DNA of 64,000 nucleotides from Mesorhizobium sp. M9A.F.Ca.ET.002.03.1.2 (GTDB taxonomy: Bacteria > Pseudomonadota > Alphaproteobacteria > Rhizobiales > Rhizobiaceae). The notes beneath the pieces were generated by a model. That model did no database searches, had not been told where the DNA came from, and was given only the letters and a program-made list of their open reading frames with translations. The DNA lies in contig NZ_CP034443.1 of assembly GCF_003952365.1 (NCBI RefSeq), positions 4,829,001-4,893,000 of the forward strand, read 5' to 3'. Position 1 is the stretch's first letter. Each line of letters starts with the position of its first letter. This document shows, piece by piece, positions 10,219-22,030 of this stretch. The position numbers and the translations under genes were made by a program.

Positions 10219-10392
10219 CTCCGCAGCTTCGATGCGGTGGCGAAAGCCGCCAGGACAATCTCCGGGATTTTCGACGGGAAGCCGGCCTGTGACGCGGCAG
10301 CGTCCGTGGCGGCGGCCGAAACCGTCCACAGACGACCCGGGCAGGCGGTGCCTGGCTGGGTCAGTGGAGGGCAAACCGACAGGAGTTCCGCA

Positions 10393-12429
10393 ATGTTCGT
10401 ACAGCCCGTCGACTATTTCCTTGCAGTCTGGTTCATTCTTGCGGGTCTTAGCACGGCTTATGTGGCGTGGGACCAGTTCCGCAACAATCCCGAACCGGTG
10501 GTGATGAAATGGGGTTTCATCCTGGTCACCCTCTACATGGGACCGCTTGGGCTGTTGATCTATGTGCTGGCCGACAAGGAGCCGCGGCCAGGCGAGCACG
10601 AAGCATTCACCAAGCCACTCTGGAAGCAAGGCGTCGGCTCGACGATCCATTGCGTGGCCGGAGACGCCACCGGCATCATTCTCGCGGCAGCGATCACCGC
10701 CGCGCTCGGGTTGCCGATGTGGATCGATCTCATCGTCGAGTATGTTGCCGGGTTCGCTTTCGGCCTGTTCATCTTCCAATCGCTGTTCATGAAATCGATG
10801 ATGGGAGGCACCTATTGGGAGAATGTCCGCAAGAGCTTCATGCCGGAATTCATCAGCATGAATTTCATGATGGCGGGCATGGCCCTGGTCATGAGCTTCC
10901 TGATGATGGGCAGCGACATGCGGGCCATGGACCCGGCCGAACTCCTGTTCTGGGGCGTCATGTCGTTCGGCGTGGTCGTTGGCTTCATCATCGCATATCC
11001 GTCCAACGTATGGATGGTGGCGGGTGGCCTCAAACACGGGCTGATGACCGAACGCGAACCGCAATCCGACAAGGCGAAGGAGCGCGAGCGCGCGCATGGC
11101 GGTGCAGTAGCGGCGGTAGCGAGGCGCCGTCACCCTCATACGCGCCTCGACGAACACGCCAACCCCGGGCACGCCAACCCCGGGCACGCCAACCCCGGGC
11201 ACGCCAACCCCGGACATGGCAACCCGGGCGGCAACCCAGAGACCGGCCATCCCCGATCCGGCCACGGCTCCTCTCACGGCAATGGCGGGTCGCGTGGTCC
11301 GCATGGCGGTCACGGAATGGAACCGGATGCAACTGTGCCGCAACTCGCGGCCTTTGGCGGAGTATCAGTGCTTGCGCTGGCACTCGGTATGATCGCTCCG
11401 GCCAATTGGGTGAATCTCACCCTCAGCGCGCGCGATGTCGGCGGCGCCATCATGCCGCCCGGCATGATCATGGACCGCGACACACCGGCTGCAGCGATGC
11501 TGGACATGGCCGCCGTGCATCCTCGCCTGATCACGGCCAGTCATGGCTTGGAGGTTCGCGGCGACCGGGAACTGGAAGCCAGGATGGAGAACGGGGTGAA
11601 GGTGTTCGACCTCGAAACGTCGGTCATCCGCTGGGCGATCCTGCCGGACGTGAAAGTCGACGCCTATGCGATCAACAACCAGGTTCCAGGCCCACGGCTG
11701 CATATCCGGCAAGGCGATCGGGTGCGCATCAACGTTACGAACCGCCTGCCGGAGAGCACGACCATCCACTGGCACGGGTTGATCCTGCCGAATGAAATGG
11801 ATGGTCCGGCTAAGATCACGCAGGAGCCAATCGCGCCCGGCGGCAGCTACCGATATGAATTCACGGCGGGCCAATCGGGGACTTACTTCTATCACTCACA
11901 TGACCATGTCGATCGCCAGCAGGCGCTCGGACTCTACGGCGCACTCATCATCGATCCCGCCAATCCCCAGGACGAGATTGCGGCCGACCATGATTATGTT
12001 ATCCAGCTTCAGGAATGGCTGATGCGGGAGGGTCTGACTTTCCCGGCGATGCCGATGGACGGCGGGCAGCCGAATTATTTCACCATCAACGGCCGCGCCT
12101 ATCCGTCAACGGACACGATCAGGATGAAGGTCGGCGAAACTCTGAAAGTGCGCTTCATCGGCACCAACAATGGGTTTATCCACCCGATGCACATCCACGG
12201 CGGTCCATTCGAGATTGTCGCCCGCGACGGCGAGACTATCCCGGAGTCGGCACGATTCCTTGCCGACACAGTCAACGTCGGACCAGGGCAGCGCTACGAT
12301 GTCGTCTGGCAGGCGCGCCGGCCCGGAAAATGGCTGATCCACTGCCATATCGGGCATCATACGACCAACAACAATGTCGAAGAGAAGGGCGGTGGCGGAC
12401 TGATGGTCGTGATCGATGTGCAACCCTGA
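10393..12429 (+). CDS. DUF4396 membrane domain-multicopper oxidase fusion protein
   Basis: A 678-residue fusion. Residues ~1-215 form a polytopic membrane region of the DUF4396 type (several helices, Met-rich 'MKSMMGG', GMALVMSFLMMGSDMRAMDP). Residues ~220-310 are a His/Gly/Pro-rich linker with HANPG repeats, and residues ~317-340 are another TM. The rest is a two-domain-like multicopper oxidase with copper motifs HWHG (459-462), HSHDH (501-505), HPMHIHG (597-603) and HCH (650-652). The HCHxxxH motif ends in H656, and the type-1 axial position (661) reads Asn, where the CopA-like neighbour has Met. The ATG at 10393 follows AGGAG with 7-bp spacing; the frame is open from 10237 but that part looks like leader. 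The expected role is periplasmic Cu(I) oxidation or copper tolerance under the CueR-type promoter. Confidence 0.88.
   Translation: MFVQPVDYFLAVWFILAGLSTAYVAWDQFRNNPEPVVMKWGFILVTLYMGPLGLLIYVLADKEPRPGEHEAFTKPLWKQGVGSTIHCVAGDATGIILAAAITAALGLPMWIDLIVEYVAGFAFGLFIFQSLFMKSMMGGTYWENVRKSFMPEFISMNFMMAGMALVMSFLMMGSDMRAMDPAELLFWGVMSFGVVVGFIIAYPSNVWMVAGGLKHGLMTEREPQSDKAKERERAHGGAVAAVARRRHPHTRLDEHANPGHANPGHANPGHANPGHGNPGGNPETGHPRSGHGSSHGNGGSRGPHGGHGMEPDATVPQLAAFGGVSVLALALGMIAPANWVNLTLSARDVGGAIMPPGMIMDRDTPAAAMLDMAAVHPRLITASHGLEVRGDRELEARMENGVKVFDLETSVIRWAILPDVKVDAYAINNQVPGPRLHIRQGDRVRINVTNRLPESTTIHWHGLILPNEMDGPAKITQEPIAPGGSYRYEFTAGQSGTYFYHSHDHVDRQQALGLYGALIIDPANPQDEIAADHDYVIQLQEWLMREGLTFPAMPMDGGQPNYFTINGRAYPSTDTIRMKVGETLKVRFIGTNNGFIHPMHIHGGPFEIVARDGETIPESARFLADTVNVGPGQRYDVVWQARRPGKWLIHCHIGHHTTNNNVEEKGGGGLMVVIDVQP
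11155..11229 (+). repeat. 15-bp tandem repeat encoding HANPG units
   Basis: Four near-identical consecutive 15-mers (CACGCCAACCCCGGG; the fourth ends in A), followed by a degenerate fifth unit (CATGGCAACCCGGGC). They are in frame and encode His-Ala-Asn-Pro-Gly repeats in the linker between the membrane and oxidase domains. The near-perfect nucleotide identity indicates recent expansion or slippage. Confidence 0.95.
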
Positions 12430-12455
12430 AGCCCTTCCGCAAAGCGAAAAGGTAA

Positions 12456-12893
12456 ATGGAGATGTTTGCCGCATACGGCGGCTTGTTTCTCATTGCCTTC
12501 GCCGCGGCAACCATCCTTCCGGCGCAGTCGGAGGCGGCCCTTGCAGGGCTCCTCGCGACCGGTTCCTTCTCGCCCGCAATGCTGGTTCTTGTCGCCAGCA
12601 TAGGCAACGTCCTTGGCTCGGCGGTGAACTGGGGACTCGGTCGAGGCGTCGAACGCTTCCGGGACAGCCCCTGGTTTCCGCTGCGCCCCGCAACACTCAA
12701 CCGTGCCACGACCTGGTATCGCCGTTATGGAAGATGGTCGCTCCTGTTGAGCTGGATGCCGATCGTCGGCGATCCGCTGACGGTGGTCGCCGGGATTTTA
12801 CGCGAGCCGCTATGGAGCTTTGTCGCAATCGTCGCCCTCGCGAAGGTTTCGCGATATCTGGTCGTCGCCGGAGCAGTGCTGGGCCTGACCTAA
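12456..12893 (+). CDS. YqaA-type small membrane protein (VTT/SNARE-associated fold)
   Basis: A 145-residue polytopic membrane protein with about four hydrophobic segments. FLIAFAAATILPAQSEAALAGLLATG, the VLVASIGNVLGSAVNWGLGRG stretch and the WMPIVGDPLTVVAGILRE loop match the YqaA branch of the DedA/VTT superfamily. AAAAGG lies 5 bases before the ATG, and the gene begins 26 bp after the oxidase fusion on the same strand, so co-transcription is likely. DedA-like proteins help membrane lipid flipping or ion homeostasis; a direct copper role is not established. Confidence 0.82.
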   Translation: MEMFAAYGGLFLIAFAAATILPAQSEAALAGLLATGSFSPAMLVLVASIGNVLGSAVNWGLGRGVERFRDSPWFPLRPATLNRATTWYRRYGRWSLLLSWMPIVGDPLTVVAGILREPLWSFVAIVALAKVSRYLVVAGAVLGLT

Positions 12894-12934
12894 ATCGCGG
12901 ACATCACAGCGCACGATTGCATTCATTTGCACAT

Positions 12935-13020
12935 GAGCCGTAAGCAAGCCTTACAAAAATGTATGAAAAATGTTGTAGCGCATGGCGGCTTCGAGCAATA
13001 CCGTTCCTGCAACGGCCTTC
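12935..13020 (+). repeat. 86-bp duplicated promoter segment, copy 1
   Basis: This segment is about 92% identical by eye (7 mismatches counted) to 20849-20934. It contains a copper-type operator box and the upstream leader of the next gene. The second copy stands ahead of the rearranged duplicate of the copper operon's 3' part. Confidence 0.9.
12951..12964 (+). promoter_or_regulatory. Cop-box-like operator 1
   Basis: TTACAAAAATGTAT, inverted arms TACA/TGTA around AAAA. From memory, this resembles sites bound by CopR/PcoR/CusR-type copper response regulators. It lies 120 bp before the ATG at 13084 and recurs at 20865-20878 and, in reverse orientation, at 20584-20597. Confidence 0.65.
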
Positions 13021-13083
13021 ACTTTTGGTTGCACTGCAGCAGGCGGCCTTGACAAATCAGCCGAACAATTGTCGGAAGGGCCG

Positions 13084-13485
13084 ATGAAGACTGTTGGTCG
13101 AATCACGATCCCAGGAAACACGCCGCTCAGAGCATTGCTGGCGGTCGTATTCCTCGTCATGTCGGCTCTCCAGCCTGGTCTGTTCGCCACAGCCAATGCC
13201 AAGGGTTCCCAGGTCAGGATGGATATCCAAGCCGAGATGCCCGCACACGACATGGGCGATCACGGCGCCACGGCGGACGACACGGACAGGCCGGAGCATC
13301 ATCACGGCGCCAAGCAATCCGCCGATAAAAGCTGCGAAGTCCATTGCGCGCCGGCGAATGCGATGCCGGTCGACTGCCCTGACATGGAGCATGTTGTCTC
13401 CCGCTGCTTTGCGCCCGTCATTGCCGTCACCTTGCCGCTCGGCGAATACACCGCGCTCATAAGGCCTCCCAGACATCTGAACTGA
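13084..13485 (+). CDS. Secreted His/Cys-rich small protein at the head of the copper operon
   Basis: A 133-residue protein. The ATG at 13084 is chosen because GGAAGGG precedes it by 3-9 bases and a signal-like hydrophobic segment (LLAVVFLVMSALQPGLFATANA) follows. The open frame starts earlier, at 12982, within the duplicated leader. The mature part is rich in His, Asp and Met (DMGDHGATADD, EHHHGAK) and then carries CEVHCAP...CPD...RCFAPV, which are possible metal ligands. It is not a family I can name with certainty; its layout recalls small DUF2946/CopL-like proteins at the front of copper operons. The role is probably periplasmic metal binding (inference). Confidence 0.7.
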   Translation: MKTVGRITIPGNTPLRALLAVVFLVMSALQPGLFATANAKGSQVRMDIQAEMPAHDMGDHGATADDTDRPEHHHGAKQSADKSCEVHCAPANAMPVDCPDMEHVVSRCFAPVIAVTLPLGEYTALIRPPRHLN

Positions 13486-13570
13486 CGCGTCCCTTTCGGG
13501 GCGTTCGCGCGCAGCGTCGGGAATCCGTTCCCGCGCGGCCAAACGCACACGTCAAGCTTCAGGGTCTATA

Positions 13571-13804
13571 ATGAAAATCGCAAGCTTCGCGATGCTCGCA
13601 TCGCTGTTCGTTGCCGGATGTGCGGCAACCACGCCGCCGGACATCCTTCCCGCCTTCAATCCGGCCGATCCCGTAATGGGCGTCCGTGATGCGCACTACC
13701 ACCCAGTCATCGCCGACTATCGCCACCGGGAGCCTGTCGATCCGCAGAATTGGCGGCGTCGCAATACGGAACGCTCCCCTGCGAACCCGGGAGCCGGATC
13801 ATGA
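13571..13804 (+). CDS. Small lipoprotein preceding the TolC-type gene
   Basis: A 77-residue protein with a lipoprotein signal MKIASFAMLASLFVAGC, so the mature protein starts at Cys17. The rest is a short Pro/His/Arg-containing chain (PADPVMGVRDAHYHPVIADY). Its TGA overlaps the ATG of the TolC-type gene (ATGA), a sign of coupling. It is probably an outer-membrane-anchored accessory of that efflux protein or a metal-binding lipoprotein; I cannot assign a named family. Confidence 0.75.
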   Translation: MKIASFAMLASLFVAGCAATTPPDILPAFNPADPVMGVRDAHYHPVIADYRHREPVDPQNWRRRNTERSPANPGAGS

Positions 13805-15258
13805 AGCGCCGGCCCCTGACCATAGCTGTGGTCGTAACCATCCCGCTGATCGCCGCCGGATGCGCGACCGGCGGGGCCCTTGATGGCATTTCAGAACCCA
13901 TGGCCGGCTTCACGACAGTCTCGGCGCGCGCCGAATCCGCGACCGGCAAGAAAACAGTGTGGGTGCAGTCCAGCGAGGAAGCACGAACGGTCTCGGAGCG
14001 CGTGAAGAGCCTCGTCCAGAAGAAGACGATCGGTCCAGATACGGCGGTGCAGGTTGCCTTGCTCAACAACAAGGGCCTGCAGGCCGCCTACGCCGAGATC
14101 GGCCTGTCGGCGGCCGACATGTGGCAGGAATCGATGCTCGTCAATCCGACGATCTCGGTCGGCATGATCGGCGTCGATCCTGTGCGGACGATTGAAGGAG
14201 CGGTGGTCGGCAACATCCTTGCGCTGGCGACCCATAAGCGGCGCGTCGCGGTCGCGGATGCGCGTTTCCGTCAGGCCCAGCTCCGCGCCGCCGAAGAAAC
14301 GCTACGGCTGGCCGCGGACACGCGGAGAGCCTGGATCAATGCGGTATCGGCCTGGGAAAGCGTTTCCTATCTGAACAAGGCGCAAGCCGCCGCCGACGCA
14401 GCCTCCGAACTCGCTCAAAAACTTGGCGAGACCGGCGCCTTCACAAAGACCGGCCAAGCCCGCGAACATGTCTTTTATGCCGAGATCACCGGTCAGGCGG
14501 CGGAGGCGCGGCTCGCCGCACGGACCGCCAAGGAGGAACTCACCCGGCTGATGGGTCTATGGGGACCGGATGTCAGTTACTCCGTCCCAAACATGCTTCC
14601 TGCCTTACCGAAGGGCGCCAAGGCCAAACGCGCGATCGAGGCGGAGGCGCTAAAAAATCGCGTCGACCTCGAGATCGCGAAGCTTGAGTTGGAAGCGCTG
14701 GCGAAATCCTACGGTCTGACCGAGGCGACGCGCTACGTCACCGATCTGGAACTGCTTTCCGGCGTGGAGGTGGAACGCGAGGAGTCTGAGGAGGGCGGAA
14801 CCGAGAAGACTGTCTCACCCACTCTGGAGCTCGAGTTCGTCATTCCGATTTTCGATACCGGCAAGGCACGCATGCGCAAGGCCGAGCTTGCCTATATGCA
14901 AGCTGCAAATCGGATGGCGGAAAAGGCAGTCAATATCCGGTCGGAGGCCAGATCCTCCTATGATGCCTACCGTTCGACCTACGACATTGCCCGGCACTAT
15001 CGGAACAATGTTGTGCCGCTGCGAACAAAGATCGAGGCGGAATCGGTCCTCACCTACAACGGCATGATCACCAACACGTTCGAGCTGCTGGCGGACACAC
15101 GCGCGAAAATCAGCTCGATCATGCTTTCCCTCAACGCCAAGCGCAATTTCTGGCTGGCCGACGTCAATCTCGGAACCGCGATCCACGGCGGCGGCGCAAG
15201 CTCGGCCGCGGGCGGCGACGCACCGGCCGCGGCCGAAGCGGGCGCTGAAGGCCACTGA
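13801..15258 (+). CDS. TolC-family outer membrane efflux lipoprotein
   Basis: A 485-residue protein with a lipobox (LIAAGC, Cys at about 21) and two long alpha-helical coiled-coil blocks typical of the outer-membrane factor repeats. Landmarks are AVQVALLNNKGLQAAYAEIGLSAADMWQ (first repeat), RIEAEALKNRVDLEIAKLELEALAKSYGLTEA and the second-repeat FDTGKARMRKAELAYMQAANRMAEKAVNIRSEAR. The C-terminus is Ala/Gly/Glu rich. CusC/NodT-type OMFs normally join an RND pump and a membrane fusion protein, but neither is encoded nearby. It lies between the small lipoprotein and the copper oxidase gene. Confidence is high for the family, low for the partner. Confidence 0.93.
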   Translation: MKRRPLTIAVVVTIPLIAAGCATGGALDGISEPMAGFTTVSARAESATGKKTVWVQSSEEARTVSERVKSLVQKKTIGPDTAVQVALLNNKGLQAAYAEIGLSAADMWQESMLVNPTISVGMIGVDPVRTIEGAVVGNILALATHKRRVAVADARFRQAQLRAAEETLRLAADTRRAWINAVSAWESVSYLNKAQAAADAASELAQKLGETGAFTKTGQAREHVFYAEITGQAAEARLAARTAKEELTRLMGLWGPDVSYSVPNMLPALPKGAKAKRAIEAEALKNRVDLEIAKLELEALAKSYGLTEATRYVTDLELLSGVEVEREESEEGGTEKTVSPTLELEFVIPIFDTGKARMRKAELAYMQAANRMAEKAVNIRSEARSSYDAYRSTYDIARHYRNNVVPLRTKIEAESVLTYNGMITNTFELLADTRAKISSIMLSLNAKRNFWLADVNLGTAIHGGGASSAAGGDAPAAAEAGAEGH

Positions 15259-15274
15259 ACGCAAGGAGAAGAAA

Positions 15275-16633
15275 ATGCTTTCAAGACGTCAGTTGCTAGG
15301 CGCGGGAGCCCTGCTCGCCGGCGCCACTGCATGGACCAAAACGTCTGCGATGGGGCTCCCCGACGCTCCAATCATGGAGTCCGCCGACATGCAGCCGCCG
15401 ATCTTCCCGACGAGCGGGCCGGACTACCAGCCGGTCGTGACGCTCAACGGCTGGACCCTTCCGCATCGCATGAACAACGGCGTGAAGGAGTTCCACCTCG
15501 TGGCCGAGCCGGTCGAGCGCGAGTTGTCGCCCGGCACGACTGCCTATCTCTGGGGCTACAACGGTCAGTCTCCCGGCCCGACCATAGAGGCGGTCGAGGG
15601 CGATCGGGTCCGCATCTTCGTGACAAACAAGTTGCTGGAGCACACGACGATCCATTGGCACGGCATGATCCTGCCCAACGGCATGGACGGCGTGACCGGT
15701 CTGACCCAGCCCGGAATCCCGCCCGGCAAGACCTTCGTCTACGAGTTCGACCTCGTGAAGAGCGGCACATTCATGTACCACCCGCACGCCGATGAAATGG
15801 TCCAGATGGCCATGGGCATGATGGGCTTCTTCGTCATTCATCCCAAGGACCCGAAATTCATGCGGGTGGACCGCGATTTCGTGTTCCTGCTGAATGCCTT
15901 CGACATCGAGCCGGGGTCGTACGTCCCGCGCATCATGGAGATGACGGATTTCAATCTCTGGGGCTGGAACAGCCGCGTCTTTCCGGGGATCAGTCATCTT
16001 CCGGTGGCGAAAAACGACCGGGTCAGGGTCCGTGTAGGCAACTTGACCATGACCAATCACCCGATCCACATGCATGGCTACGACTTCGAGGTGACTTGCA
16101 CCGATGGCGGCTGGGTCCGGCCGGAGGCGCGGTGGCCGGAGGTGTCGATCGACATCCCCGTCGGCGCCATGCGGGCATATGAATTCGAAGCCAAATACGA
16201 GGGCGACTGGGCGATCCACTGCCATAAGTCGCACCACACAATGAACGCCATGGGCCACGATGTGCCCACGCTCATCGGCGTCGACAACTCGAAGGTCACC
16301 GACAAGATCCGCCGGGTCCAGCCCGAATATATGGCCATGGGTGACCGTGGCATGGCCGACATGGGCGAGATGGAGATGCCGCTTCCCGACAACACCATCC
16401 CGATGATGAGCGGCTGGGGCCAATTCGGCGCCATCGAGATGGGCGGGATGTTCTCGGTCGTGAAGGTGCGCGAAGGGCTGGCCTCGAACGATTACGCCGA
16501 TCCGGGCTGGTACCAGCACCCGGAGGGAACCGTAGCTTACGAGTGGAAGGGAGATGTCCCCGCTCCGACGAAATCAGGCGACGCAAAAACGATGGCTCCG
16601 GCAGCGCACGGCGGTCACGGCAAACAGGGATGA
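15275..16633 (+). CDS. copA: CopA-like periplasmic multicopper oxidase
   Basis: A 452-residue protein with a Tat-like signal (SRRQLLGAGALLAGATAW). All four copper motifs are present: HWHG (127-130), YHPHADE, HPIHMHG and HCHKSHHTMNAM beginning at residue 315, where the last Met is the type-1 axial ligand. Family members oxidise Cu(I) to Cu(II) in the periplasm and confer copper tolerance. It follows the TolC gene by 16 bp and its TGA overlaps an ATG ahead of the cupredoxin gene. A deleted copy of its 3' part lies at 20985-21199. The name copA is by analogy; strict orthology was not tested. Confidence 0.9.
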   Translation: MLSRRQLLGAGALLAGATAWTKTSAMGLPDAPIMESADMQPPIFPTSGPDYQPVVTLNGWTLPHRMNNGVKEFHLVAEPVERELSPGTTAYLWGYNGQSPGPTIEAVEGDRVRIFVTNKLLEHTTIHWHGMILPNGMDGVTGLTQPGIPPGKTFVYEFDLVKSGTFMYHPHADEMVQMAMGMMGFFVIHPKDPKFMRVDRDFVFLLNAFDIEPGSYVPRIMEMTDFNLWGWNSRVFPGISHLPVAKNDRVRVRVGNLTMTNHPIHMHGYDFEVTCTDGGWVRPEARWPEVSIDIPVGAMRAYEFEAKYEGDWAIHCHKSHHTMNAMGHDVPTLIGVDNSKVTDKIRRVQPEYMAMGDRGMADMGEMEMPLPDNTIPMMSGWGQFGAIEMGGMFSVVKVREGLASNDYADPGWYQHPEGTVAYEWKGDVPAPTKSGDAKTMAPAAHGGHGKQG

Positions 16634-16674
16634 GACCCGAAACCCTCAACCTCAACAATGAGAGAAAGTGCAGC

Positions 16675-17163
16675 ATGAAACGTATCATCGCAGCGGCCGT
16701 TTTGATGGCCGCCAGTTCCGGAACAGCTGTTGCCGGCGGAACCCACGCTGGAGGCCATGGCGACAAAGCCGCCGCAATGCCGATCGGCAACCCTGGCGAT
16801 GCCGGCAAGGCAAAGCGGACCGTCAACATCTCGATGTCGGAGAAGGACGACGGGACGATGTTGTTCCAACCAGCCGTGCTCAAGGTGAAGAAGGGTGAGA
16901 CCGTTCGCCTGAAGTTCGTCAACAAGGGCCAGACCGACCACGAATTCGTCATGGACGTCCATGACGGGATCATGGAGCACAAGGCGCTGATGGAGAAGTT
17001 CCCCGAAATGGAGCATGCCGATCCCAACGCGATCCGGCTGGCGCCCGGCGCCAGAGGCGAGATCATCTGGACCTTCGCCAATGCCGGCGAATTCGGCTTC
17101 GCCTGCCTGGTCCCGGGTCATTACGATTCCGGCATGAAGGGCGACATCAGCGTCGCCAACTGA
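16675..17163 (+). CDS. Periplasmic cupredoxin (plastocyanin/azurin-like), copy 1
   Basis: A 162-residue protein with a signal peptide ending in AVAGG. The Met at 16675 is preferred because the hydrophobic segment starts there; an in-frame ATG at 16630 overlaps the copA stop. The cupredoxin copper site is readable: His in TDHEFVMD, then Cys, His and Met in FACLVPGHYDSGM (Cys-x4-His-x4-Met). Such proteins accept or carry copper in the periplasm and often accompany CopA-like oxidases. The second copy at 21235-21720 differs by about nine substitutions and one missing Ala. Confidence 0.92.
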   Translation: MKRIIAAAVLMAASSGTAVAGGTHAGGHGDKAAAMPIGNPGDAGKAKRTVNISMSEKDDGTMLFQPAVLKVKKGETVRLKFVNKGQTDHEFVMDVHDGIMEHKALMEKFPEMEHADPNAIRLAPGARGEIIWTFANAGEFGFACLVPGHYDSGMKGDISVAN

Positions 17164-17190
17164 CTGACAAAAATCGCAAAGGAGACAATC

Positions 17191-17475
17191 ATGACGCTAT
17201 TGATAAAGGCACTCTCGACACTCGCGCTCATGCTCGCCATCGGCAGCAGCGCGCTTGCGCAGGAATACGTGAAGGGCGAAGTCGTCAAGGTCGACGCCAA
17301 ACAGCAGAAGCTGACGATCAAGCATGAGCCGCTGACCAATCTCGACATGCCCGCGATGACGATGGTGTTCGTCGTCGCGGAGGACGGCATGATCGAGAAG
17401 GTCAAAACGGGTCAAGCGATCGAGTTCACAGCCGACCGCGTCAACGGACGCATCACGGTCACTGACATCAAGTGA
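17191..17475 (+). CDS. CusF-like periplasmic copper-binding protein, copy 1
   Basis: A 94-residue protein with a signal peptide (ALMLAIGSSALAQ) and one OB-fold CusF domain. The metal-binding stretch reads IKHEPLTNLDMPAMTMVF: the His and the two Met of MTM match CusF ligands, while the CusF Trp position is Met here. CusF hands Cu(I) to CusCBA; here no CusA or CusB is nearby. It is the last gene of the first copper operon, followed by a hairpin. Copy 2 at 21746-22030 differs at six residues by eye. Confidence 0.92.
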   Translation: MTLLIKALSTLALMLAIGSSALAQEYVKGEVVKVDAKQQKLTIKHEPLTNLDMPAMTMVFVVAEDGMIEKVKTGQAIEFTADRVNGRITVTDIK

Positions 17476-17488
17476 TCCGGGAACAGCA

Positions 17489-17511
17489 CCGCGGGTTGAA
17501 AAAACCCGCGG
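17489..17511 (+). terminator. Hairpin after copper operon 1
   Basis: A 9-bp perfect stem, CCGCGGGTT/AACCCGCGG, with an A-rich 5-base loop, located 14 bp after the cusF-like stop and between convergent genes. There is no clear T-tract, so termination strength is uncertain. Confidence 0.6.
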
Positions 17512-17559
17512 CAGTCCCACGCGCTTGATCTCCGTGGACGGACATTTCTTCAAATCCAT

Positions 17560-18918
17560 TCATCGTGTACGTGGGAATTCTGCGCTGACGATTAAGCCGG
17601 GGCTATTGTCGTCCAGGGAAATTGTCGCACCATGGATGTCGGATATGGCCTTGACCAGGCTGAGGCCGAGCCCTGTCCCTTCGGTCGTCCTGCTCTTTTC
17701 CACGCGATAGAAGCGCTTGAGCACTTTCTGCCGCTCCTCCGCCGGGATGCCCGGTCCGTTGTCGCTGACGACGATGGAGCAGCGCTTCGCCTTCGTCGTG
17801 ACACCGATCGCAATCCGGGCCCCTCGTTGTGTGTGGCGCATTGCATTGACGACAAGGTTCACGCACATCTGCTTCAGCAGATCGGCATCGCCCCATATGA
17901 ATGAGGCCGTGTTTCGGCTGTCACTGGACAGAACCAGAGAACGCTCGGCGTCTTCCACGATGTGACTATAGATATCGTGGATTTCGGTGACCAATTCTGA
18001 AAGGTTCACCTTTGCAAATCGCGTCCGGCGCGCGCCGGACTCGATCTGCGAGATGCGCAGCAGACCATCGAATGTGCCGGCTATGTGCGAGACTTCGCCC
18101 ATCGCCTTTTCGATGAGCGATCTCGTGACGGTTTGGTCCTTGCTTTCGGAAGCGGCCTCAAGTGTCAGAAACAGCCGCCCGATCGGCGTCTTGAGGTCAT
18201 GCGCGATGTCGGTCGTTACCTGCGTCATCGCCGCAACGCTAGCCTGCAGCTGTGCCAGCGCGACATTGACCTCAGCTGCCAGCATGTCGATGTCATCGCC
18301 GCGCAAGGAGATCGGCAGGCGGGTGGCGAGCTCGCCGGCGCCGACGGCCTTCATGGCACCCGAGAGTCCAGCGATGCGCCGCCGTGTGCGGAACGCCAAC
18401 ACCGCACCCGCGCCGAGGCCTCCGGCAAGTACGATCGCCGTTCCCCAGCCGAAGCTGACAAGCGCGATGCCGCGCAAGCGATTGGTGTCGTCATAGCTTA
18501 CGCCGACGGTCAGGTCGTAGCCATCCAGGTTCTTCCGGTAGAGCCGGTAGTTGGTGAGCGCCGTGTTGTGGCTTGTCGGTGCGCGCGTGGAAAATCCCGG
18601 CGGCGACGCCGAAATATCAATGTTGCCAGCCAGGAAGTCGCCGTTGGGATCCTTCAGTGTGTAAAGCGTCTCCTGTCCCCTGATTGCCGGACCATGGCTT
18701 CGGATCATGGCGGCAGCGCCATCGACACCGTTCGCCTCATAGGCGAATGCAATCTCCCGGAACCGCTCCATCACATTTGAATCCAGCCGCTCGTAAAGAT
18801 AGGCGGCGACCATGTTGTAAGCGACGAAATTGGCTCCCAGGAACGAAAGCAGAAACAGGGAGATGTAGAACGCGGCAAGTCGGATCGACGTACTTCTGGC
18901 GATACTAGCGTTGGCCAT
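17560..18918 (-). CDS. Sensor histidine kinase, heavy-metal (CusS/CopS-like) type
   Basis: A 452-residue membrane kinase. TM1 is at ~12-35 (LAAFYISLFLLSFLGANFVAYNMV), followed by a periplasmic domain to about residue 150, TM2 (IALVSFGWGTAIVLAGGLGAGAVLAF) and HAMP. The DHp domain has the phospho-acceptor His in TDIAHDLKTPIGRLF. The ATPase N-box is NLVVNAMRHTQ, with G-boxes DNGPGIP and GTGLGLSL. The ATG at 18918 overlaps the response regulator's 3' end by 14 bp; an upstream in-frame start at 18963 is less likely. Located inside the copper cluster, it most likely senses periplasmic copper (inference from context). Confidence 0.9.
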   Translation of the reverse strand: MANASIARSTSIRLAAFYISLFLLSFLGANFVAYNMVAAYLYERLDSNVMERFREIAFAYEANGVDGAAAMIRSHGPAIRGQETLYTLKDPNGDFLAGNIDISASPPGFSTRAPTSHNTALTNYRLYRKNLDGYDLTVGVSYDDTNRLRGIALVSFGWGTAIVLAGGLGAGAVLAFRTRRRIAGLSGAMKAVGAGELATRLPISLRGDDIDMLAAEVNVALAQLQASVAAMTQVTTDIAHDLKTPIGRLFLTLEAASESKDQTVTRSLIEKAMGEVSHIAGTFDGLLRISQIESGARRTRFAKVNLSELVTEIHDIYSHIVEDAERSLVLSSDSRNTASFIWGDADLLKQMCVNLVVNAMRHTQRGARIAIGVTTKAKRCSIVVSDNGPGIPAEERQKVLKRFYRVEKSRTTEGTGLGLSLVKAISDIHGATISLDDNSPGLIVSAEFPRTR

Positions 18919-19582
18919 GAATGGTGTAGCCGGTATTGCGTGTATTATGCAGGAGCGGAACATCGAACGGTTTGTCGATCTTCGCCCGCAGTCGGCTGAT
19001 ATGGGTTTCCACCACGGTGCTTTGTGGGTCGAAGTTGAAGTTCCAGATCCGCTCCAGAAGCATGGTCTTCGTCAGTATGCGGCCCTCGTTACGCATCAGG
19101 AGTTCAAGCAACGCGAATTCCCGAGGGAGCAATTCGATCGTCGTTCCGCCGCGGGTGGCGAGGCGGCTGAGGAGATCCAGTTCCAGATCAGCCACTTTCA
19201 GCTTTGCCTTTTCGGCGGCGATCGGAGGGCGCCTTCGCAGAGCATTGACACGAGCCAGGAGTTCGGAGAAGGCAAAGGGCTTGATCAGGTAATCGTCGGC
19301 ACCGGCCTCCAGTCCCTCGACTCGATCGTTGACACCGCCCACCGCCGTCAGGAAGATCACTGGCACCTTTCCGCCGGCGCCTCGAAGACCCCGCACGAGC
19401 GACAAGCCATCGAGGCCTGGCAGCATCCGATCCACAATTGCGACATCATAAGGTTCGCGCAGTCCGACAAGCAGAGCATCGCGCCCGTCTGTCATGACAT
19501 CGACCACATGGCCGGAAGAGTTCAGTCCATTTTCGATGTAGCGGCTGATTTGTTCGTCGTCTTCGACCAAGAGAATTTTCAT
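18905..19582 (-). CDS. OmpR-family response regulator, CusR/CopR-like
   Basis: A 225-residue protein with a receiver domain (1-~118; acidic pocket EDDEQ, phospho-Asp in VAIVDRMLPGLDGL, Lys in YLIKPFAFSEL) and a C-terminal OmpR winged helix (~130-222; LLPREFALLELLMRNEGRILTKTMLLERIWNF). It is the first gene of the kinase pair. It is the natural candidate to bind the three TTACA-N4-TGTA-type boxes in this region (inference). Confidence 0.93.
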   Translation of the reverse strand: MKILLVEDDEQISRYIENGLNSSGHVVDVMTDGRDALLVGLREPYDVAIVDRMLPGLDGLSLVRGLRGAGGKVPVIFLTAVGGVNDRVEGLEAGADDYLIKPFAFSELLARVNALRRRPPIAAEKAKLKVADLELDLLSRLATRGGTTIELLPREFALLELLMRNEGRILTKTMLLERIWNFNFDPQSTVVETHISRLRAKIDKPFDVPLLHNTRNTGYTIHGQR

Positions 19583-20010
19583 AATGGCAGTCTCTCATCT
19601 GGCTTGGCGCGCCAAGCGTTGATGACCTTTTATCCAGCTTGCTTCTGCCGGCGATGGCGCGGACGAAGCGATGTTTCAGGGAGACTTTGCTCGGCGGGTT
19701 TTTCGGCTCGGCGCCATCAGTCGGTGACGCGGCCTTTCCACCAGCCAGATCCTGGGTTTTGATACCTCAACATCCATGGACTGGATCGACAACACGGTTT
19801 GGAAGCAAAAGCACCTTGCAACTTTCGAGGTAATTGACCACTCGTATCGTCATCCTTTCATTGTACCGCAAGTCCAACATAAGGCTCACCTTTTTCCATT
19901 CCCGGGCAATGGCCGGGTGATTCCGACGATGACTACGGATTCTCTCACAACTGTGTCCAATATAGGCCAATAGCTTGGCGGATCGTGGCCGGCGATCACA
20001 GCATCGTGTC

Positions 20011-20032
20011 GCGCCGCTTGTATAAGCGGCGC
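20011..20032. terminator. 9-bp perfect stem-loop
   Basis: GCGCCGCTT-GTAT-AAGCGGCGC. It is GC-rich with a tetraloop, lies in a non-coding stretch and has no T-tract on either strand. It could be a terminator or part of a small structured RNA. Confidence 0.4.
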
Positions 20033-20121
20033 CCCTCCCTGAGGTGCGTGGAGAGCATGTCGGCTGCAATGAGCTGCGCACTGGAGCAAGATTTGGTCAG
20101 GTTCGTTAGCGAGCGGTGAAG

Positions 20122-20159
20122 GGGCAAACCAGCCGGCGGTGCTGCCGGCTGGTTTGCCC
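20122..20159. terminator. 16-bp perfect stem-loop downstream of the small secreted protein gene
   Basis: Left arm 20122-20137 (GGGCAAACCAGCCGGC), a 6-base loop, and a perfectly complementary right arm 20144-20159. It starts 47 bp after the end of the minus-strand gene at 20206. It is very stable but lacks a T-run. Confidence 0.55.
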
Positions 20160-20205
20160 TGCATTGGCCCCGTGGGAGGATGCGGAGCCTGCTGTGTTGG
20201 TCCTG

Positions 20206-20496
20206 CTATCGGCCCGCCCAGCTGTCGCGCTGGCGGGGGGAGATACCCTGCCACCATGACGGGCTCACGACTTCGACTCGATCGTAGCGGGAATTGGTCT
20301 TCTGGATGTCGCCATTGTCGAGCACTTGGTAAGATATGTCGGGGTTGGATGCCGATTTCGCGGTTTCGCCCGCCGATCCATGGCCCTGCAAGACCTTGTC
20401 GATGCCGGAGCTTGTCGGGTTCGTGCCGCTGCTGGCGACACTGGCCGAGGTCATCGCCGCGAAGACTATCAATGCATATCCGATGGTGTGTTTCAT
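20206..20496 (-). CDS. Small secreted protein of unknown function, candidate copper-responsive
   Basis: A 96-residue protein with a typical signal peptide (HTIGYALIVFAAMTSASVASS). The short mature chain is polar (SGIDKVLQGHGSAGE) and ends in an aromatic patch (VEVVSPSWWQGISPRQ). It has no cysteines and only one mature-region His, so it is not an obvious metal binder. I do not recognise a family. It is a monocistronic unit between the two copper blocks. A cop-type box lies about 88 bp ahead of its start, and a 16-bp palindrome (GAGCGTTCGAACGCTC, 20520-20535) lies in its leader. Confidence 0.7.
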   Translation of the reverse strand: MKHTIGYALIVFAAMTSASVASSGTNPTSSGIDKVLQGHGSAGETAKSASNPDISYQVLDNGDIQKTNSRYDRVEVVSPSWWQGISPRQRDSWAGR

Positions 20497-20519
20497 GGTT
20501 CAGTCCTTTTGTCTAAAGC

Positions 20520-20535
20520 GAGCGTTCGAACGCTC
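20520..20535. promoter_or_regulatory. 16-bp perfect palindrome in a leader
   Basis: GAGCGTTCGAACGCTC lies 24-39 bp upstream of the ATG at 20496. It may be a protein-binding site; having no loop, it is unlikely to act as an RNA hairpin. The function is unknown. Confidence 0.45.
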
Positions 20536-20583
20536 AGCAACAACAGGCTACGGGGTCGAATTCACGGGCACCTTCCGTCGGAC

Positions 20584-20597
20584 TTACATTTTTGTGA
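20584..20597 (-). promoter_or_regulatory. Cop-box-like operator 3 (reverse orientation)
   Basis: Read on the minus strand it is TCACAAAAATGTAA, which matches the boxes at 12951 and 20865 in 12 of 14 positions. It lies 88-101 bp upstream of the small secreted protein gene that ends at 20206. Confidence 0.6.
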
Positions 20598-20848
20598 TTC
20601 TCATGCGTGGTCGCGACTGAAGCCGAAATCGGGAAGTTCAGCTTTGAAATGCCACATGTTGAACGGCTGTCGCAGTTTCTCTTGCGCCGATGCATGGCCA
20701 TCCAATGCGACTTCCGTCATGAAGAACATCTGATTGTCGCGTCTGCTTGAGGCGCTGAGAGACTGCCGCACAGGAGTTGTGTCGGTCGTCCGCTATTCCT
20801 GATTCAGGAGTTCCGCAGCGAGGTTGACGACCACCCGCAAGTGGCCAC

Positions 20849-20934
20849 GAGCCATACACAAGCCTTACAAAAATGTATGAAAAATGTTGTGGCGCATGGC
20901 GGCCGCGAGCAATACCGTTCTTGCAACGGCCTTC
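20849..20934 (+). repeat. 86-bp duplicated promoter segment, copy 2
   Basis: The counterpart of 12935-13020 with seven mismatches by eye. The shared identity stops abruptly after GGCCTTC, about 50 bp before the copA fragment begins, so the duplicate operon is a composite of two non-adjacent source pieces. Confidence 0.9.
20865..20878 (+). promoter_or_regulatory. Cop-box-like operator 2
   Basis: Identical 14-mer TTACAAAAATGTAT to the box at 12951-12964, now ahead of the copA remnant and the second cupredoxin and cusF-like genes. Retention of an intact box suggests the duplicate unit is still regulated. Confidence 0.65.
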
Positions 20935-20984
20935 GTTCGCCCGTGCTCGAACCTCGGTATTGAAGCAGTATCCTGGGATCGTCC

Positions 20985-21199
20985 GAGGTGTCGCTCGACA
21001 CCCCGACGGCGCCATGCGGGCATACGCGTTCGAAGCCAAATACGAGGGCGACCGGGCGATCCACTGCCATAAGTCGCACCACACAACGAACGCCATGGGC
21101 GTACTCACGGTCATCGGCGTCGACAACTCGAAGTCACCAGCAAGATCCGCCGGGTCCAGCCCGAATACAGCGCACGGCGGTCACGGCAAACAGGGATGA
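20985..21199 (+). pseudogene. Remnant of a second copA-like oxidase gene (3' part, internally deleted)
   Basis: Residues GAMRAY...EAKYEGD...IHCHKSHHTTNAM match the C-terminal copper-binding region of the oxidase at 15275-16633. At nucleotide level 20985-21167 matches 16139-16329. Then 272 bp (16330-16601) are missing and the match resumes at 16602. Small deletions also shift the frame after VDNSK. The N-terminal three quarters, including three copper motifs, are absent, so it cannot encode an oxidase. Confidence 0.88.
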
Positions 21200-21234: not shown

Positions 21235-21720
21235 ATGAAACGTATCATTGCAGCGGCCATTTTGATGGCCGCCAGTTCCGGAGCAGCTCTTGCCGGCGGA
21301 ACCCACGCTGGAGGGCATGGCGACGAAGCCGCAATGCCGATCGGCAATCCTGGTGAAGCTGGCCAGGCAAAGCGGACGGTCAACATCTCGATGTCGGAGA
21401 AGGACGACGGGACGATGCTGTTCCAACCGGCCGTGCTCAAGGTGAAGAAGGGCGAGACCGTTCGCCTGAAGTTCGTCAACAAGGGCCAGATCGACCACGA
21501 ATTCGTCATGGACGTCCATGACGGGATCATGGAGCACAAGGCGCTGATGGAGAAGTTCCCCGAAATGGAGCATGCCGATCCCAACTCGATCCGGCTGGCT
21601 CCCGGCGCCAGAGGCGAGATCATCTGGACGTTCGCCAATGCCGGCGAGTTCGGCTTCGCCTGCCTGGTCCCGGGTCATTACGATTCCGGCATGAAGGGCG
21701 ACATCACCGTCGCCAACTGA
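21235..21720 (+). CDS. Periplasmic cupredoxin, copy 2
   Basis: A 161-residue near-duplicate of the protein at 16675-17163. The signal peptide and N-terminus hold most of the differences. The copper site (IDHEFVMD and FACLVPGHYDSGM) and the core are unchanged, so selection appears to maintain function. The leader between copA remnant and start, including its GAGAAAG ribosome-binding region, is conserved. It probably forms a two-gene unit with the following cusF-like gene under the copied promoter. Confidence 0.92.
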   Translation: MKRIIAAAILMAASSGAALAGGTHAGGHGDEAAMPIGNPGEAGQAKRTVNISMSEKDDGTMLFQPAVLKVKKGETVRLKFVNKGQIDHEFVMDVHDGIMEHKALMEKFPEMEHADPNSIRLAPGARGEIIWTFANAGEFGFACLVPGHYDSGMKGDITVAN

Positions 21721-21745
21721 CCGCCAAAACCGCAAAGGAAGAATC

Positions 21746-22030
21746 ATGACATTGTTGGAAAAAACACTCTCGACACTCGCGCTCGCGCTCGCCATCGGCG
21801 GGAGCGCGCTTGCGCAGGAATACGTGAAGGGCGAAGTCGTCAAGGTCGACGCCAAACAGCAGAAGCTGACGATCAAGCATGGGCCGCTGACCAATCTCGA
21901 CATGCCCGCGATGACGATGGTGTTCGTCGTCGCGGAGGACGGTATGATCGAGAAGGTCAAGGCGGGTCAGGCGATCGAGTTCACAGCCGACCGCGTCAAC
22001 GGACGCATCACGGTCACCGACATCAAGTGA
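21746..22030 (+). CDS. CusF-like periplasmic copper-binding protein, copy 2
   Basis: A 94-residue protein differing from copy 1 (17191-17475) at six positions by eye, four of them in the signal peptide (Ile5Glu, Ala7Thr, Met14Ala, Ser19Gly). One change, Glu to Gly, is directly after the ligand His (KHGPLTN). The MTM metal-binding motif is intact. An AAAGGAA ribosome-binding site precedes the ATG. It is the last gene of the duplicated unit. Confidence 0.92.
   Translation: MTLLEKTLSTLALALAIGGSALAQEYVKGEVVKVDAKQQKLTIKHGPLTNLDMPAMTMVFVVAEDGMIEKVKAGQAIEFTADRVNGRITVTDIK

Follow-up and report, generated by a model that had tools for sequence, protein, structure and literature searches.

A TTACA-N4-TGTAA box as the probable operator of a local copper regulon in a Mesorhizobium strain

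The genome of Mesorhizobium sp. M9A.F.Ca.ET.002.03.1.2 (6,415,165 bases) contains, within a stretch of 64,000 nucleotides that is referred to here as the window (C1:4829001-4893000), a group of copper genes, a two-component pair and three copies of a short inverted repeat of the type TTACA-N4-TGTAA. Box A (TTACAAAAATGTAT, 12951-12964, plus strand) lies upstream of the main copper operon, box C (the same 14-mer TTACAAAAATGTAT, 20865-20878, plus strand) lies upstream of a partial second copper unit, and box B (TCACAAAAATGTAA, 20584-20597, minus strand), which agrees with TTACAAAAATGTAT at 12 of 14 positions, reads toward the gene of a small secreted protein of 96 residues (sec96), with 87 bp between the box and the start codon. 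An earlier reading made from the letters alone (the sequence-only reading) had described identical 14-mers at 12951 and 20865, a 12/14 reverse match at 20584, a different unit behind each site and a CusS/CusR-like pair encoded between them, and all of these were located again. Strand-matches of TTACANNNNTGTA with at most one mismatch number 7 in the window, as against a mean of 1.0 and a maximum of 5 in 100 shuffles, none of which reached 7. The distance between TACA and TGTA is 4 bp in the window sites, which excludes the CopY-type cop box, TACA-N2-TGTA.

The main operon, encoded on the plus strand, is headed by a small secreted His-rich protein (13084-13485). In size, richness in His, secretion and place this protein is like CopL, the small His-rich secreted protein that heads the copLAB copper operon of Xanthomonas, but its match to the CopL model is weak (NF033807, 19.9 bits with a cut-off of 40), so that it stays below the score set for that family. 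It is followed by a small lipoprotein (13571-13804), which was matched in 49 of 80 loci with relatives of the oxidase (some of these loci being short), a TolC-family outer membrane protein (13801-15258; PF02321, NCBIfam), a multicopper oxidase (15275-16633; PF07732, PF07731), a CopI-like cupredoxin that stays under the NCBIfam cut-off (16675-17163) and a CusF-like periplasmic copper-binding protein (17191-17475; PF11604). No gene for a CusBA pump was recognised in the operon. Behind box C, and also on the plus strand, lie a C-terminal remnant of the oxidase (20985-21167, 89.5% identical to 16139-16329) and a second cupredoxin and second CusF-like gene, both intact (21235-22030, 94% identical to 16602-17512). 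The minus strand encodes a sensor histidine kinase (17560-18918), an OmpR-family response regulator of CusR/CopR-like type (18905-19582; Pfam Response_reg and Trans_reg_C), which is the presumed reader of the box, and sec96 (20206-20496), which has no Pfam or NCBIfam match and no assigned family, with 24 homologues in a protein search. A receiver joined to Trans_reg_C next to a membrane kinase is the arrangement of CusR/CopR-type systems, and so is an operator made of two inverted 5-bp half-sites with 4 bp between them, located ahead of copper genes.

The association of box and regulator was followed across loci, namely 80 with oxidase relatives, 30 around regulator relatives, 20 longer regions, 14 plasmid stretches and 9 same-genus regions found via sec96. 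The regulator search matched 192 of 394 genomes, and longer stretches were retrieved for 20 of its best places. For genome loci, the copper branch was separated from its paralogues by kinase identity (at least 51% as against about 37-43%), regulator identity being no separator of the branches (59.6-70.2% in paralogues), and plasmid loci were assigned to the copper branch by their neighbouring copper genes. Duplicates and near-duplicates (L158, L167, L180, L182) were excluded from the counts, and the window is counted among the 16 copper-branch loci. Two loci (L080, L084) were first noticed by the motif and are, among the 80 oxidase loci, the sole two with a regulator match near 70%. A locus is called regulator-less when none was matched in the fetched stretch, which spans at most 10 kb per side and often less, and some such loci contain distant regulator relatives of 28-38%.

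With at most one mismatch, TTACA-N4-TGTAA is present in all 16 loci that have the orthologous regulator (34 matches, with 1 for the control), as against 8 of the 78 oxidase loci that lack it (8 matches, with 20 control matches in 18 loci), and only one of these eight matches is exact, upstream of the operon of a Shinella sp. (L072). The further same-genus regions have it in 9/9 cases (20 matches, control 1), and loci of the paralogue branch in 10/17 (12 matches, control 5). Exact matches occur 13 times at a spacing of 4 and never at spacings of 0-3 or 5-11, while the 16 loci contain a single exact TGACA-N4-TGTCA. Among 3,034 perfect inverted repeats of 5-mers (spacings of 0-10) in an open ranking, TTACA-N4-TGTAA came first, being found in 9 of the 16 loci where 0.07 would be expected. 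The box before sec96 is kept in all nine same-genus regions, at 86-87 bp from the start codon in eight of them; it stands 95 bp from the first matched sec96 residue in L219, and L160 has the same pair of boxes as the window, including the one upstream of sec96. In ten chosen genomes 33 sites are exact, and 18 of these lie no more than 20 kb from a regulator gene; one of the ten, G261, has three exact sites, none of them so placed, and its copper boxes are one-mismatch forms. The contrast of 16/16 with 8/78 loci and the nine same-genus regions give strong support to the proposal of the sequence-only reading, in which the adjacent CusR-like regulator controls a local copper regulon, and the three sites are very probably the operators of such a regulon. 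Sequence comparison shows that the sites exist, are conserved, go with the regulator and have a fixed 4-bp spacing.

Two of the sites had been taken for copies made by duplication, and the copied unit can now be given as a promoter segment of roughly 90 bp, since 12932-13020 with box A and 20846-20934 with box C (both plus strand) are 91% identical. Box B falls outside the duplicated block, and the independence claimed for it is borne out by this and by the box kept upstream of sec96 in the nine same-genus relatives. The segment appears to come and go between relatives. In Mesorhizobium camelthorni (L039) the match to the window stops at 12896 and resumes at 13015, which leaves out about 118 bp including box A, and Mesorhizobium sp. 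YC-39 (L040) matches from 13017 on, with the operon and without the box; no regulator was matched in the stretch fetched for either, and the main-operon site is thus absent in two relatives without a regulator nearby. Three other loci (L213, L214, L216) have the regulator and the promoter segment, with ATACA-N4-TGTAT at the position of box A, and a fourth (L211) has the right-hand arrangement alone within its 19.9 kb, with the same box as box C at the same position.

An OmpR-family activator is expected to have its site just upstream of the -35 element, and the box is probably placed in this way. In the main operon, a weak -35-like TAGCGC (12976-12981), 11 bp past box A, and a -10-like TACCGT (12999-13004), both on the plus strand, may form the core promoter; the -10-like part is conserved in L213, L214 and L216. 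TTGAC stands 11-12 bp behind the box in L159 (at two promoters), L163, L164, L218 and L219, which make up 6 of the 15 occurrences of TTGAC within 60 bp behind 110 oriented boxes, with L163 and L164 being close copies in this count. In these two loci and at one of the L159 promoters, TTGAC is followed after 17 bp by CATAGC or CATAGG. A direct repeat of OmpR type (AAAAATGT...AAAAATGT), which occurs in the segments of box A and box C, was rejected as a candidate, since it is conserved neither behind box B nor in L160. A second conserved element, consisting of GTTGCACTGCAGC and CTTGACAAATCAGCCGAACAATTGTC, lies at 13028-13073, before the start codon of the CopL-like protein. Because this element is retained in relatives both with and without a nearby regulator, the operon may also be under a further, older control. 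Among the operon loci without the regulator, GTGAT-N6-ATCAC was the first-ranked inverted repeat (9/46 loci, upstream of the lipoprotein gene; L048, L052, L053, L064-L066, L068, L075 and one more), and it is possibly the site of another regulator.

The box form itself is not new and belongs to a known kind of bacterial copper control. The E. coli CusRS system is likewise an OmpR-family regulator and a membrane kinase beside copper genes, and its cusR-cusC box, TGACA-N4-TGTCA, is also a 5-4-5 inverted repeat, located some 80 bp ahead of the start codon. Its half-site is TGACA, whereas the window and the copper branch have TTACA, so that the box here is not of the E. coli type; the helix is TNAIDVAVKRLR in E. 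coli CusR as against STVVETHISRLR in the window regulator, and the His/Met-rich loop of E. coli CusS is absent from the aligned window kinase. A closer parallel is found in Pseudomonas paraeruginosa IHMA87, where CusR is described as acting via a palindrome between cusR and pcoA2 on the basis of DNA affinity purification sequencing (DAP-seq), gel shift and reporter fusions, and copper induction requires this palindrome, which CusR binds (PMC11195947). The palindrome is described as perfect in the paper, which gives it as ATTCATnnATGTAAT and writes the left half of the mutant version as ATTACAT (PMC11195947); the site is therefore most likely ATTACATnnATGTAAT, that is TTACA-N4-TGTAA, as here. 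Both systems would thus combine a copper-responsive OmpR-family regulator next to copper genes with the half-site TTACA and a 4-bp spacing. They differ in that the CusR proteins of P. paraeruginosa and E. coli share 70.7% identity, whereas the window regulator stays below the NCBIfam cut-offs, and in that the pcoA2B2GOFCDK operon is a gene set unlike that of the window (PMC11195947). A consensus of TGACA-N4-TGTCA is given for CopR and CusR in another paper (PMC12428095), and CTGACAn5GTAAT for CopR in the first (PMC11195947); these Pseudomonas CopR boxes have the same spacing, and in CTGACAn5GTAAT the right half is already of the present form, while T is usually second in both half-sites of the present boxes. 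The resemblance to copper boxes that the sequence-only reading had pointed out therefore holds for the geometry, which is that of E. coli cusR-cusC, and most likely for the letters of the Pseudomonas CusR palindrome.

The recognition helix reads VVETH[IVM]SRLR in all 33 aligned members of the family, as against AIDVAVKRLR in E. coli CusR. The idea that the VVETH helix sets the specificity for TTACA was dropped, because Pseudomonas CusR, which is close to E. coli CusR (70.7%), seemingly has TTACA too, and the difference between the helices cannot be taken to explain why the half-site is TTACA rather than TGACA. The periplasmic domain of the kinase has Met71 and His75, which are invariant in 70/70 aligned kinases (the window kinase and 69 picked from 120 listed), whereas the equivalent positions of 17 paralogues have Met in none and His in 2. 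According to an AlphaFold2 model of the kinase (mean predicted local distance difference test, pLDDT, of 78; predicted template modelling score, pTM, of 0.46), in which the long N-terminal helix stops at residue 74, the pair would lie at the end of that helix. Met71 and His75 are plausible Cu(I) ligands, and a copper site may be located there.

According to the mechanism proposed, the membrane kinase would detect excess copper in the periplasm and phosphorylate the regulator, which would bind TTACA-N4-TGTAA as a head-to-head dimer upstream of the core promoter. The bound regulator would then raise, rather than repress, the transcription of three units, namely the main copper operon, the cupredoxin-cusF unit behind box C and sec96, and the predicted regulon of this strain would accordingly be expected to respond to copper.

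A number of observations weigh against this mechanism. The regulator scores below the cut-off of its best NCBIfam model (TIGR01387, 240.5 bits with a cut-off of 279.2) and of the E. coli CusR model (NF007346, 207.5 of 420 bits), as does the kinase with the heavy-metal sensor model (TIGR01386, 158 of 292.55 bits). The -35 and -10 elements of the window operon are poor matches, and no box with up to two mismatches lies between sec96 and the window regulator gene. In L215 and L218 the regulator is present, yet one operon copy each is without the box, and the chromosome with a boxless operon (L041) carries the regulator about 240 kb away from it (L161). The loci are related by descent, so their counts are not independent events. 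A paralogue beside which no copper genes were noticed has the same helix and similar boxes. Across the strain's own genome of 6.4 Mb, finally, the 14-mer with at most one mismatch occurs in 15 places, as against 34 for the reversed control.

As a class, this loose 14-mer is at background genome-wide, and the sequence-only reading had named random frequency in a whole-genome scan as the result that would speak against function. To the letter this frequency was found, although such a scan is a poor test for a local regulator with a short box, and the case therefore rests on the comparison between loci. Three of the 15 places fall in one 8-kb stretch, two of these being copies; exact matches of the 15-mer TTACAAAAATGTATG are confined to two copper places, and with up to two mismatches it has six places, three of them copper. 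No copper context was recognised at the remaining 12 places, which were inspected for reading frames without a family search, and the stretches fetched around the two DUF411 and four Porin_2 matches of this genome contained no box with at most one mismatch. The low whole-genome count and the origin of two of the three sites in a single duplication would fit a reading of the boxes as chance AT-rich palindromes, two of which were copied, but the conservation of position and sequence across nine same-genus loci and more distant genera, together with the first place among 3,034 inverted repeats, makes this reading scarcely credible.

More serious are the alternatives raised by the paralogues, which are about 60-70% identical to the window regulator, share its DNA-recognition helix and are paired with other kinases. 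This sister two-component branch (L181, L183, L184, L186-L191) adjoins, in several loci, genes for a lipid A phosphoethanolamine transferase (L181, L183), a PAP2 phosphatase (L181, L183, L184) or MprF (L191). In 6 of 17 paralogues a box with at most one mismatch lies in the 300 bp ahead of the regulator gene itself (control 0), and in 11 of 17 when up to two mismatches are allowed (control 1). The box could thus be read by another regulator, such as an envelope-stress OmpR-family paralogue or an unlinked repressor, with the copper pair merely nearby, or, in a milder form, be shared, and PMC11195947 describes CopR and the zinc regulator CzcR as using the same palindrome as CusR in P. paraeruginosa, so that one box can serve several regulators. 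Against a different reader, the box tracks the copper-branch regulator gene across loci, and a search of the strain's own genome at E <= 1e-70 found a single member of the family (7 of 50 candidates scored); such a reader is thus quite improbable. It is also unlikely that the regulator reads the box but responds primarily to another metal or to envelope stress, with the copper genes being incidental. The neighbours of the sister branch would agree with this, as would the alignment of the sensor, which shows nothing like the His/Met-rich loop of CusS, but oxidase, cupredoxin or CusF genes lie within the stretch fetched for 14 of the 16 copper-branch loci (the exceptions being L161 and L166), and Met71 and His75, invariant in the copper branch, are plausible ligands of Cu(I). 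The preferred explanation is therefore that the nearby CusR-like regulator controls a local set of copper genes, with two qualifications. Because the paralogous system shares the helix and similar boxes, the box by itself does not imply copper, and cross-talk of the sister branch at the box is possible; and because the helix is shared, the DNA-reading specificity may predate the copper role.

In relatives, the boxes stand before the His-rich operon head gene and sec96, before the regulator in divergent arrangement (L080, L084, L165-L168, L178, L179, L185), before Porin_2 genes (twice in L157, and in L161, L163 and, at 341 bp, L160) and before DUF411 genes (L157, L159). The Porin_2 boxes near the copper regulator suggest copper-controlled porins. 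The copper locus looks accessory within the genus, because sec96 is present in only 10 of 146 genus genomes, the window strain included. A search of 394 family genomes with the DNA of 20560-20960 gave matches restricted to the strain's own genome and 22 bases in G261, and no plasmid record was found to carry most of 12400-20960. Upstream of the operon, a single frame (10237-12426) fuses a DUF4396 domain to a multicopper oxidase via a repeat of the residues N-P-G-H-A.

The literature searched, with most subscription journals outside it, contained no paper defining such a box for rhizobia, and box spellings gave no paper either, which is weak evidence, as PMC11195947 spells the box differently. 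What is new here is the rhizobial regulon, the promoter segment that comes and goes, the kinase family with an invariant Met-x3-His, and the porin and DUF411 targets in relatives. A wider reading, tentative and rather doubtful as a whole, is that of a subfamily of copper two-component systems in rhizobia and related bacteria that shares its helix with an envelope-stress sister, acquired copper sensing via the periplasmic Met-x3-His, extended its control as the promoter segment of about 90 bp was carried to new operons and directly controls Porin_2 genes in several relatives.

For rhizobial copper resistance, the analysis supplies a testable operator together with its likely regulator, and the occurrence of the operon with and without box and regulator constitutes a natural experiment in the capture of a copper operon by a two-component system. 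Cross-talk and a change of signal become directly testable through the sister branch, whose sensor differs while its DNA-reading helix is the same. Direct control of Porin_2 in several relatives, if true, would link copper excess to the permeability of the outer membrane.

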